Below the pieces are notes generated by a model that was not told the DNA's origin, made no database searches, and worked only from the letters and a program-made list of their open reading frames with translations. Shown here one piece after another: positions 14,031-56,969 of a stretch of DNA of 64,000 nucleotides. Each line of letters starts with the position of its first letter. The stretch's first letter is position 1. A program made the translations under genes and the position numbers. Source of the stretch: Paraflavisolibacter caeni (GTDB lineage Bacteria; Bacteroidota; Bacteroidia; Chitinophagales; Chitinophagaceae); contig NZ_JAOTIF010000001.1 of the NCBI RefSeq assembly GCF_025628885.1, positions 62,001 through 126,000 of the forward strand, written 5' to 3'.

Positions 14031-14112
14031 AAGTCAAAGTTAGACAGGATTTGCTATTGAATTTAGCAATGTGGATAACTGGGATCGGCGTGGTAGTTGA
14101 GTGATGGTAGGG

Positions 14113-14211
14113 GTTGATACGGGGTTGTGGAAGGGTAAGTAGGGAGTTGCATTTCTATAACTTTACTATAACTTTACTGTAAGTTTTCTGTAAGTTTACT
14201 ATAAGGATATG
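14113..14211 (+). repeat. Array A: nine 11-bp tandem units upstream of the 14284 gene
   Basis: Units start at 14113, 14124, 14135, 14146, 14157, 14168, 14179, 14190 and 14201, exactly 11 bp apart. Units 5 and 6 are both ATAACTTTACT; unit 7 is GTAAGTTTTCT and unit 8 GTAAGTTTACT. Unit 9 keeps only ATAAG. Upstream units keep GTTGA, GTTGT, GTAAG and GTTGC at the same phase. Every unit begins (A/G)T, and TAA recurs in six of nine. The array ends 72 nt before the ATG and is most uniform near the gene. Since 11 is not a multiple of 3 and units carry TAA, stops fall in every frame, so it is non-coding. Confidence 0.85.
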
Positions 14212-14283: not shown

Positions 14284-14979
14284 ATGGCAAAAAAAAGAAG
14301 CAACAGGGTGAGTACGCCTCCTCCCCCGGATGGATCGCAATACATATTGGTTAAAACCAAAGAAGGATCCTTTTGGCGGCGTAAAAGAGGCAGTGTAAAA
14401 CCTGCACCTGTAAATGATGTTTTGGCCCGCAATGCAGAAGCATCGAAAGTGACGGGGCCTGCAGCTAAAAGGATTGTGGATAAACTACGTCCTTATTTAA
14501 GAGGGCTCCGAACCGGAAGGCTTACAGTTCGTGTTATTGGGGCGTTGCGGAAAGCATTGAACCGAAAGGGAATTATTGATTTTACTTTTTTAGATGGGAT
14601 GGAATTACAGCCTGAGCATCCGTTCAATAAATTGGTATTGGATCCTTACAAGGTTGAGCAGGCAGATCGTTCGCTGCATATTTCGATACCAATTGGGAAA
14701 GGGAGGGTGAAGCAGCTTAACGGTATAGTAACTGATTATTATTTTGAAGCAATTGTAGTACAAGGTGATGCTACAAAAGATAGCGGCTTGCGTGTGGATA
14801 GTGTGGAATCGAAGGTATACTCCATTGAAGCAGATCAAAAGCTGTGTGAACTTTCTGTTGATTTGCCTGCACAGAAAGGGCCCTGGATGCTGCTGCTGAA
14901 GATCAGTAGCCTTGAAGGCAATGAAATGGCAGTGCATCCAAGGCACTATGCGATGAAGGTAGTGAAGACCGGAGAATAA
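14284..14979 (+). CDS. Array-associated protein A, unknown function
   Basis: 231 residues, no signal peptide or membrane segment. A short basic N-terminus (MAKKRSNR) and a PPPP turn lead to YILVKTKEGSFWRRKRGSV. An Asn/Lys/Arg-rich helical stretch (VNDVLARNAEASKVTGPAAK, about 44-63) and a beta-rich C-terminal half follow. The stretch from RGSVK to GALRKA aligns without gaps to RGTYK...SRMRSA of the protein at 44264-44962, sharing RG, K, A, N, VL, N, AAK, D and several Leu. The C-terminal phrases (PWMLLLKI / YYILCLKL) also match, so I infer homology. Both genes have 11-bp arrays upstream. Basic residues make nucleic-acid binding possible, but nothing proves it. Confidence 0.8.
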   Translation: MAKKRSNRVSTPPPPDGSQYILVKTKEGSFWRRKRGSVKPAPVNDVLARNAEASKVTGPAAKRIVDKLRPYLRGLRTGRLTVRVIGALRKALNRKGIIDFTFLDGMELQPEHPFNKLVLDPYKVEQADRSLHISIPIGKGRVKQLNGIVTDYYFEAIVVQGDATKDSGLRVDSVESKVYSIEADQKLCELSVDLPAQKGPWMLLLKISSLEGNEMAVHPRHYAMKVVKTGE

Positions 14980-44263: not shown

Positions 44264-44962
44264 TTAACCCCATAACCCCGTCCCAACAATCCTCATCCCC
44301 ATACCTGCAAAACTCTCCACTTCCTTTTCCGCTTGTCCAGCCTGCAGCTTCAGGCAAAGTATATAATACTGCCCGTCTGTTGGATGATCAATCCAAAACT
44401 CACAAATAGGCACCGGTGCTGAAAGTTGTATCCATTCAGTTCCCGTATGCTCAATTCCACATAGTTGCCCATCCTTATTCATCCAAAGCACAAACAACTC
44501 ATAGCAGTATTGCTCGGCCTTCACCTTCTTTCCAAATACTGGATGCCCTATCGCCGTCATGTTCAGAATGAGACCTTCCTTATCGCTACGCACCACGACT
44601 TGTGGCACTGGTACTCGCCGGCCCAGCGGGTAAGCTTTATTAATTTCCAGACTTTCAAGTGTTCTATACAATCCGGAGAGGGTAGGAGAAGACGCACTCC
44701 GCATCCTGCTCAATAATTGTTGCCATAAATCTCGCTGCTTAAATGGACCTGCTAGTTGCTTTAATGCATCATGCACCGGTTTAGCGGCTTTATTCAATAA
44801 AGAAGTCAGCATTGAGTTCTGCTCAAGTACACTATTACAGATAGCTCGTTTATAAGTGCCTCTCACTGCCCGTGTATGAGCAGGGTAAGACTTGCTGTTT
44901 ACATGAGTGACATCATATAATGTTCCTTGCAAGCTAATAAGGGAAGGGACAATTTTTGCCAT
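44264..44962 (-). CDS. Array-associated protein B, unknown function
   Basis: 232 residues, soluble by appearance. The start MAKIVPSLISLQGTLYDVTHVNSKS recalls widespread Bacteroidota proteins beginning MA-xxGxxGDITFYK-, often followed by an RxNxxEF motif; here the equivalent is RGTYKRAICNSVLEQNSML. A helical LLNKAAKPVHDALKQLAG segment and a beta-rich C-terminal half (YYILCLKL, MGMRIVGTG) follow. The RGTYK...SRMRSA stretch aligns without gaps with RGSVK...GALRKA of the 14284 protein. The ATG at 44962 is used; the open frame extends two codons to a TTG. An 11-bp array lies 91 nt upstream. The function is unknown. Confidence 0.8.
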   Translation of the reverse strand: MAKIVPSLISLQGTLYDVTHVNSKSYPAHTRAVRGTYKRAICNSVLEQNSMLTSLLNKAAKPVHDALKQLAGPFKQRDLWQQLLSRMRSASSPTLSGLYRTLESLEINKAYPLGRRVPVPQVVVRSDKEGLILNMTAIGHPVFGKKVKAEQYCYELFVLWMNKDGQLCGIEHTGTEWIQLSAPVPICEFWIDHPTDGQYYILCLKLQAGQAEKEVESFAGMGMRIVGTGLWG

Positions 44963-45053
44963 TTTCAAAGGGGTTTGGTAACTTCAGTTTTGGTTGAATG
45001 TGTTCTATATCTCACACAAAATACTACATATTGCCCATCTTTTTTCTCCTCGG

Positions 45054-45174
45054 CTTATAGAGACTTTATAGAGACCTTATAGAGATGTTATAGAGACCTT
45101 ATAGAGACCTTACTGCATGGTTACTCCATATATACTCCTATTGTACTCCCTGTTTACTCCATACCTAAGCCTGT
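45054..45174 (-). repeat. Array B: eleven 11-bp tandem units upstream of the 44264 gene
   Basis: On the plus strand, units start every 11 bp from 45054 to 45164. Units 1-5 are CTTATAGAGAC with changes only at the first or last base. Unit 6 (CTTACTGCATG) is a transition; units 7-10 follow NNTACTCCNNN (two read GTTACTCCATA and TTTACTCCATA); unit 11 is CCTAAGCCTGT. TA at positions 3-4 is invariant in all eleven. Read on the gene strand, the proximal unit GGTCTCTATAA matches array A unit GTTTACTATAA at 8 of 11 positions. This array and the 19-bp repeat at 45263 are all I see in the 339-nt gap 44963-45301. Confidence 0.88.
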
Positions 45175-45262
45175 AAAATTCCCCCGTCTGTTCCCCTTCT
45201 ATCCTCTGTCATCCACAATCTGTTCTCCCCATTCGACATTTGCACGTGTCCGCCTCTGACGG

Positions 45263-45281
45263 ATTCGAATCATTCGTCATT
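45263..45281 (+). repeat. 19-bp dispersed repeat, copy 1
   Basis: ATTCGAATCATTCGTCATT occurs here and again, identical, at 55664-55682. Both are intergenic, just 3' of, or between, genes. The match is too long for chance in a 64-kb window. Confidence 0.7.
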
Positions 45282-45301
45282 CCCATCATTCCATTGTTTC
45301 G

Positions 45302-55639: not shown

Positions 55640-55663
55640 TCCTCTCTATCTACCTCATTAGTC

Positions 55664-56441: not shown

Positions 56442-56969
56442 ATGAAACTTTTTGTTGCAGGCCTTCCGTATGATTTATACGACGATGAACTGGTTGAAAT
56501 TTTTGAGAAATTCGGAAAAATAGTGTCTGCCAAAGTTGCGATGGACAAAGAAACCGGCAAAAGCAGAGGATTTGCCTTCGTGGAAATGGAAAACGAGCAA
56601 GATGCAAAAGATGCCATTGAGCATTTAAATGATATCTCACTCGGGAAAAAACCGTTAGTCGTTAAAGAAGCTGGCGACCAGCAAGGTGGCGGTGGCTACG
56701 GCGGAGGCAACAGAGGCGGTGGTTATGGTGGCGGCGGCTATGGCGGCGGCGGAAACCGTGGCGGCTATGGTGGCGGCGGTTACAATAAAGGTGGAGGCCA
56801 GGGTGGCGGAAACCGCGGTGGCGGTGGCTACAACAAGGGCGGCGGTTATAATAGTGGTGGCGGTGGCTACAACAAAGGTGGCGGTGGTTATAACAGCGGC
56901 GGCAGCGGTGGCAGCGGTGGTTATAACAAAAGCGACGATGGTGGTTACAAGCCTCGCAACAGGTACTAA
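56442..56969 (+). CDS. Glycine-rich RRM RNA-binding protein
   Basis: 175 residues. An N-terminal RNA recognition motif (about 1-78) has RNP2 KLFVAGLP and RNP1 KSRGFAFVEM. The rest is a glycine-rich tail of GGGGY(N/G)KGG-type repeats (about 84-165) and a terminal KPRNRY. This is the Rbp type shared by cyanobacteria and Bacteroidota, which binds single-stranded RNA, often in cold adaptation. The 227-nt upstream gap may hold a long leader. Two strong hairpins follow. Confidence 0.93.
   Translation: MKLFVAGLPYDLYDDELVEIFEKFGKIVSAKVAMDKETGKSRGFAFVEMENEQDAKDAIEHLNDISLGKKPLVVKEAGDQQGGGGYGGGNRGGGYGGGGYGGGGNRGGYGGGGYNKGGGQGGGNRGGGGYNKGGGYNSGGGGYNKGGGGYNSGGSGGSGGYNKSDDGGYKPRNRY

Follow-up and report, generated by a model that had tools for sequence, protein, structure and literature searches.

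This locus of Paraflavisolibacter caeni raises the question of whether a protein family and the arrays of 11-bp DNA units lying before its genes belong together and, if so, what the arrays do. We analyzed a 64-kb stretch of the genome (the window) in which the initial annotation had placed two such genes, each behind an array; the positions of both genes and both arrays were reproduced. Gene A (14284..14979, + strand) encodes a protein of 231 aa (P0001) belonging to the first subfamily of the array-linked family. Gene B (44264..44962, − strand) encodes a protein of 232 aa (P0002) when read from its best start, ATG 44962; the ORF was listed up to a TTG at 44968, six bases before. The two proteins were aligned by BLASTP over 206 aa with 22% identity (E 3e-8), supporting the homology proposed for them and rejecting the alternative that they are unrelated. 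In single-protein searches of the 7.0-Mb genome, P0001 and P0002 were the sole two matches; a profile search added three distant relatives (E ~2e-4). No Pfam or NCBIfam match was found for P0001 at E up to 10, and P0002 had sub-threshold ones only (HSR, E 0.29; CesT_sub, E 0.033).

Both arrays were evident from a self-similarity scan of the window (offsets of 5–40 bp, score out of 44): offset 11 reached at least 30/44 at exactly two places, array A and array B (37 and 39, respectively), against a background with a mean of 11.2 and a standard deviation of 3.05. The core of array A (14155..14206, + strand; offset-11 scan) consists of five CTATAA/CTGTAA units of 11 bp and ends with CTATAAGG, its last CTATAA stopping 79 nt short of the ATG of gene A. 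A weaker 5′ part (14106..14154, + strand) precedes it, and the BLAST matches of dispersed type-1 elements, described below, begin at 14106; their identity to the core was up to 94% over 52 bp. The core of array B (45054..45112, − strand; offset-11 scan and array typing) contains five GTCTCTATAAG-type units. It is preceded in the same 11-bp phase by GGAGTA-type units (45113..45174, − strand), and a module of this type also lies 5′ of the dispersed type-2 arrays (consensus of 14 elements). In the stretch farther upstream (45175..45282, − strand), matches of dispersed elements reach 45282. Of the unit counts given previously, nine and eleven, neither holds for units of one kind: each array has five CTATAA/CTGTAA direct units (14155–14204 and 45054–45112), and the higher numbers are obtained only by pooling these with the diverged 5′ units, which are in phase with them. 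Another set of tandem repeats in the window (56715–56944; 39-bp and related units) lies within an ORF (56442–56969) and is probably a Gly/Tyr/Asn-rich coding repeat.

A search with P0001 gave 28 matches in 13 of 294 family-level genomes, and a 25-member profile, distant relatives counted in, had matches in 53/394 genomes of the family and 9/395 of the class; up to seven candidates were scored per genome, so genomes with many copies may hold further members. The close family was defined as all 53 genes among the matches listed at E ≤ 4e-12 (one of them in two pieces). In the 450 nt upstream, a lag-11 score of at least 26/44 was found for 50 of the 53 genes (at least 30 for 49), and downstream for 0/50, three stretches being too short to score. 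Other lags from 6 to 24, except 22, reached this score in 0–4 of the 53. The idea of a gene and array paired otherwise than by chance is thus borne out by the homologues, and a chance origin of the arrays was rejected on these values and on the window scan. The 11-bp period was held in about 15 genera although the unit sequences differ.

Three close-family genes fell below this score: L018 is N-terminally truncated, L046 is broken, and L050 retains about three degenerate units. The gene start and the array of L018 were probably lost together, judging by the neighbours that it has in common with intact, array-bearing genes. Array lengths, whose slippage the initial annotation put forward as a possible means of tuning expression, were typed with a five-unit window, the minimum reportable length being therefore five units; 38 of the 50 arrays did not extend past five, and 12 had six to nine. 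No constant spacing of promoter boxes was found 3′ of the arrays.

The weaker profile matches comprised 53 places, of which 29 distant homologues were examined. At the same threshold, lag 11 was found upstream of nine, lag 10 of five, and lags 7 and 22 of three each; downstream, lags 10 and 11 gave 0/26. The period upstream of L058, L066, and L083 is 10 bp, not 11 bp (32, 30, and 33 of 44, respectively). The close family and up to 21 members of the distant subfamily were aligned by hhalign over the full length (99.2%, E 8e-20). On a plasmid of Marivirga there is a relative of the distant subfamily (46%), and its 11-bp signal is weak (24/44). Viral contigs had no match for A4, P0001, L067, or P0003, phages had none for P0002, and plasmids had none for P0001 and P0003. 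A pattern-based scan of genome contigs, a method which reaches close relatives only, found no relative of P0002 and, when a tight alignment was the query, two loci.

Arrays were not confined to the two genes. A generic array pattern gave 152 overlapping matches in the whole genome and none for the reversed control; the unit patterns of genes A and B gave 74 and 90 matches (reversed controls, 2 and 11, respectively). The 0-mismatch rows of the two unit-pattern scans were grouped by hand into 24 type-1 sites (gene A unit) and 26 type-2 sites (gene B unit), each gene's own array counted in; where type-2 sites lie at contig ends, some pairs may represent one divided site. With one type-1 site, C8:86845, being a chance match, this leaves about 21–22 further intergenic sites for the gene A unit and as many as 25 for the gene B unit. 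The initial annotation had regarded like arrays common beside unrelated genes as an argument against the pairing. Such arrays are indeed common there in this genome, yet they extend the finding, because their units belong to the same two types as those of genes A and B. In the window, array A was matched by type-1 elements and array B by type-2 elements; the exceptions were one type-1 element matching at array B and a 21-bp match at 55662.

Eighteen of the 23 dispersed type-1 sites were fetched (one a chance match; C43 was left out), and 41 of all 43 fetched elements passed the lag-11 test. At contig ends, open-ended ORFs overlap two of the 43; in the others, no ORF longer than 400 nt runs across the core. 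The type-1 element L203 matched 16 others over 135–275 bp with 76–96% identity, while the surroundings differed. The orientation of type-1 elements to the flanking genes was mixed (++ 6, −+ 5, −− 4, +− 3; n = 18, one a chance site), and a strictly codirectional promoter regulon was rejected on this ground. The placement of type-2 elements is not random: where both neighbours are known, transcription of the left gene leads away from the array in 12 of 14 cases. Inspected by eye, the intergenic DNA near the arrays (L177–L216) seems to be pieced together, as a mosaic, from shared modules rich in purines, GAATGACGAATGGGG, GATGATAGATGATAGAGG, and GATTTCGGATTTCGG.

A multi-copy mobile element (G000 contig ends) was found inserted in type-2 arrays, with 11 matches to one 146-nt end (loci L217–L226, L184, L186, L188, L193, L195, L196, and L198). 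GGTCTC precedes it in all nine junctions that were readable among the 11, and its other end abuts TCTCTATAA; the element body was not found. Such insertion recalls that of ISPpu9 in REPs, as described in the available text of PMC8450116.

When 17 type-1 elements were aligned without gaps, they shared six units with an identity of about 0.9 and a sharp end at CTATAAGG. The module on the 5′ side becomes gradually less alike across some seven or eight more units; the register is kept, for about seven units at an identity of 0.55–0.75. A constrained spacing would explain why the register is kept 5′ of the core despite this lower identity. For all seven sequences that were folded, stability was below the average of the shuffled versions (z from +0.28 to +2.11), and hairpin elements were rejected. 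Terminal inverted repeats were not found in the outer 70 bp, the longest exact inverted match being like that of shuffles (means of 5.00 versus 5.62 and 5.72 versus 5.64; n = 17 and 18) with element ends that are approximate, since the 5′ border is not sharp; on this test, MITEs were rejected as well.

The units of the dispersed arrays correspond to the genes that reside with them. Of 70 dispersed sites sampled from 12 genomes, 58 matched the unit of a resident gene, against 25% for the genes of other genomes, and the observed mean was reached in 0/10,000 permutations; a match was counted when on average no more than 1.5 of the five linker bases differed. One string per site was picked by the investigator from the pattern listings: G000 was represented by eight sites and G304 by 13 of its 19 listed ones, and two-mismatch sites were excluded save in G085 and G064. 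Outside the test were G068, G074, G106, G063, and G008 (which have arrays but lack a close-family gene bearing that type of unit), G126 (two-mismatch matches only), and G214, G162, G293, G259, G163, and G333 (places not listed). Because of these omitted genomes and sites, a strict one-to-one rule of gene and array is not proven.

In a second pattern search, matches exceeded the reversed control in all 16 chosen genomes, narrowly in G304 (116 versus 89), G333 (27 versus 19), G162 (33 versus 21), and G068 (7 versus 6). G126 has a family gene, and its dispersed arrays were unclear (five two-mismatch matches only). Arrays lacking a matching gene were found in G068, G074, G106, and, in one case, G365; G148, which is 76% complete, has three sites of one type with no matching gene. 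Two further arrays, detected by the pattern alone, lie upstream of other genes in genomes with no close-family member: a DUF6266 gene in G063 and a gene for a 117-aa protein, which had no Pfam match, in G008. The former (L095 587–1225, − strand) has its array of three units about 300 bp upstream (lag-11 score 26/44); the latter (L098 1020–1370, − strand) has a similar, GKLG-type start and an upstream array scoring 35/44. These cases give hints that the array link may reach further families beyond the close one.

The unit sequence covaries with the protein sequence, as had been proposed for verification: the Mantel correlation of protein and unit distances was 0.43 (n = 49; 0/5000 permutations) and rose to 0.60 (n = 24; 0/5000 permutations) in a single genus whose genomes contain several paralogues. 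In that genus, 22 of 24 arrays were closer to the array of the nearest protein from another genome than to the mean of the same-genome paralogues; two were not. Simple linkage of gene and array could be sufficient for this covariation. The units remain alike between proteins that differ by 26–54%, and this retention suggests selection on them.

As for the protein, two AlphaFold models based on four-sequence alignments (pLDDT 75 and 73) agreed with each other in a low-confidence N-terminal beta region, two helices, and a C-terminal sandwich; the N-terminal 50 residues had pLDDT values of 32–64 per block of ten. A fold search with the first model against PDB and viral libraries gave no match at E ≤ 0.001. 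The C-terminal part of the second was similar to fibronectin-III/Ig sandwiches (one match, 4wtx, E 6.6e-4, TM by query length 0.26), a weak predicted resemblance with little bearing on function. Residues 1–60 carry a mean net charge of +8 (range of 1 to 15, 47 proteins). The alignment columns with at least 80% identity among 49 proteins are V, R, N, A, Y, P, and M; no column of Asp, Glu, His, or Cys was conserved at 80%. The N-terminal charge together with this set of columns makes a binding protein more likely than an enzyme, while the conserved Arg 33 (48/49) and Tyr 154 (41/49; P0002 numbering) may leave room for an enzymatic role. No recognised DNA-binding domain was found with Pfam/NCBIfam, and no transposase domain was found in Pfam for P0001 and P0002 (E up to 10) or L019, L008, and L049 (E up to 1). 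PHROG gave weak sub-threshold matches, among them an endonuclease for L049 (E 0.014) and a virion protein for L019 (E 0.035).

The reading that we favour, with roughly even credence, is that of a DNA-binding protein acting on its own array and regulating itself, accompanied by non-coding array copies that turn over. The basic, probably non-enzymatic protein would recognise one 11-bp unit per helical turn, and protein units would line up head to tail on the array; the array before the gene would be an autoregulatory operator. Gene-free copies with their 5′ in-phase module would spread through intergenic DNA, these non-coding elements forming one cognate population per paralogue. That the arrays serve as one-turn-phased sites for the family protein itself is plausible; binding, oligomerisation, autoregulation, and the means of spread are what we infer from sequence comparison. 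There are precedents for proteins on such repeats: according to the available text of the respective papers, 11-bp direct repeats are bound by ParR of R1 and 10-bp ones by ParR of pB171 (PMC9426499), CarH-type regulators bind tandem 11-bp repeats at promoters (PMC9304148), and RepB of pMV158 binds 11-bp direct repeats (PMC9943647). A further reading, which we hold only tentatively, is that the superfamily, perhaps together with DUF6266, could be the trans-acting partner of its own mobile phased arrays, combining recognition by each paralogue, self-regulation, and propagation or maintenance of the arrays.

Whether the protein itself copies the arrays, alone or with a host nuclease, in the manner of RAYT and as one selfish or domesticated mobile system, is bound up with the turnover of the dispersed elements. 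In two species of one genus, G164 and G295, the gene is syntenic with flanks about 90% identical (L237, L238). The dispersed arrays of these genomes, three and seven in number (three of the latter near contig ends and hence with one short flank), have no surroundings in common except for a short simple repeat. A third species of the genus, G087, showed no family gene, and its only pattern matches are five with two mismatches each. One G295 array adjoins a gene which we take to be tpiA; the array is absent at the matching place in G164 and G087, these empty sites being imperfect owing to other changes. The comparison suggests that the array population turns over between related species. A palindromic, GTTGTTGGTCGCCTGACCAACAAC-like repeat recurs near the G295 arrays (L230, L233, L234). 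Among 117 genomes, six had at least five array matches, a threshold picked after the data were seen, and five of these were among the seven having a close-family gene (p 7e-7). Copying by the protein would fit these observations, the layout of a fixed gene with cognate dispersed intergenic elements, and the conserved Tyr; we nevertheless regard it as unlikely in view of the absence of a Pfam transposase domain and of conserved Asp, Glu, His, and Cys, the lack of detectable hairpins and terminal inverted repeats, and the gradual fading of the 5′ ends.

Another transcription factor could also bind the arrays, the family gene being one target among many. The CarH-type regulators offer a model for this, the arrays are intergenic, and most type-2 elements lie on the 5′ side of the gene to their left; the mixed orientation of type-1 elements tells against such a regulon, and a single factor would not explain several unit types per genome with matching paralogues, which makes this account rather improbable. 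We consider it about as improbable that the protein structures the chromosome, bringing the dispersed arrays together in a nucleoprotein complex like that of ParR on parC. The ParR repeats of 11 and 10 bp resemble the superfamily arrays, which are 11-bp and in some cases 10-bp, but species-specific array placement fits a structural role poorly, and Pfam gave no ribbon-helix-helix match. Moreover, when the neighbours within 1.5 kb of 28 loci were compared among themselves, no family was common to all, including any adjacent ATPase gene of the ParM type; neighbours were shared only among loci of one genus. Satellite-like DNA, grown by slippage and recombination and settled before these genes by accident with no binding role, would account for the gradual 5′ decay and the likeness of units inside one array, but is extremely improbable given the upstream placement, the period kept across genera, and the units retained between diverged proteins.

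The favoured reading, a self-regulating protein on its own array with dispersed copies, most resembles in layout the RAYT/REPIN system, although both molecular tests of the latter, for a transposase domain and for hairpins, failed here. As the available text of PMC3116915, PMC8049555, and PMC8450116 describes it, RAYT is a low-copy, vertically inherited gene with cognate dispersed intergenic repeats, which are richer where the gene is present and are targets of a site-specific insertion element. Our family likewise appears vertical and non-mobile from the neighbours shared within a genus and the syntenic G164/G295 locus. In contrast, Pfam gave no tyrosine (HUH/Y1) transposase domain for the five proteins searched, no conserved His was found among the 49 proteins, and REPs are inverted, hairpin-forming doublets, whereas the present arrays are direct 11-bp repeats. 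The parC site of ParR is similar in that direct repeats of 11 bp (or 10 bp) lie before the partition operon (available text of PMC9426499); it differs from the present arrays, which are chromosomal, dispersed in dozens, and without a conserved partner gene. In the models of our family, two helices follow predicted beta strands, in a part that is of low confidence.

The CarH operators and the RepB/DDR system of pMV158 share tandem 11-bp repeats bound on one DNA face (PMC9304148, PMC9943647), but their repeats number three to four and lie at operators or a single origin, their proteins are unrelated, and dispersed copies are not mentioned in the available text of these papers. The BrickBuilt MITE of Porphyromonas gingivalis is a dispersed intergenic tandem-repeat element of Bacteroidota; in the accessible part of PMC4596501, it is described with a 23-nt unit and inverted-repeat ends, and no cognate protein is named. 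DUF6266 (PF19781), of unknown function, has a member with a short upstream array in G063. PF19781 was matched by neither P0001 nor P0002 (E up to 10), nothing emerged when one DUF6266 protein was compared with the family profile, and L057, a match of the family profile, did not match DUF6266; because the profile comparison and the L057 search were both negative, homology is not claimed.

Searches of open-licence literature for such arrays in Bacteroidota yielded no matching system, which suggests that this partnership of a protein and a DNA repeat may not yet have been described. We rate a family without a transposase domain paired with dispersed direct-repeat arrays as a putative new kind, its function being deduced from genomic data. 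The pairing places a protein family, one with no Pfam or NCBIfam model among those searched, in a genomic context for the first time, ties dispersed repeat families in Chitinophagaceae-type genomes to single genes, and makes the co-evolution of recognition and repeat readable from many paralogue–array pairs. It also predicts a ligand for each family protein, its own upstream array, which as a probe would measure about 55 bp. Should the protein drive or maintain the arrays, this would be a partnership of protein and dispersed repeat without a recognisable transposase; and if the superfamily is truly the trans-acting partner of its arrays, it would stand beside RAYT/REPIN as a second type of system made up of a protein and dispersed repeats.
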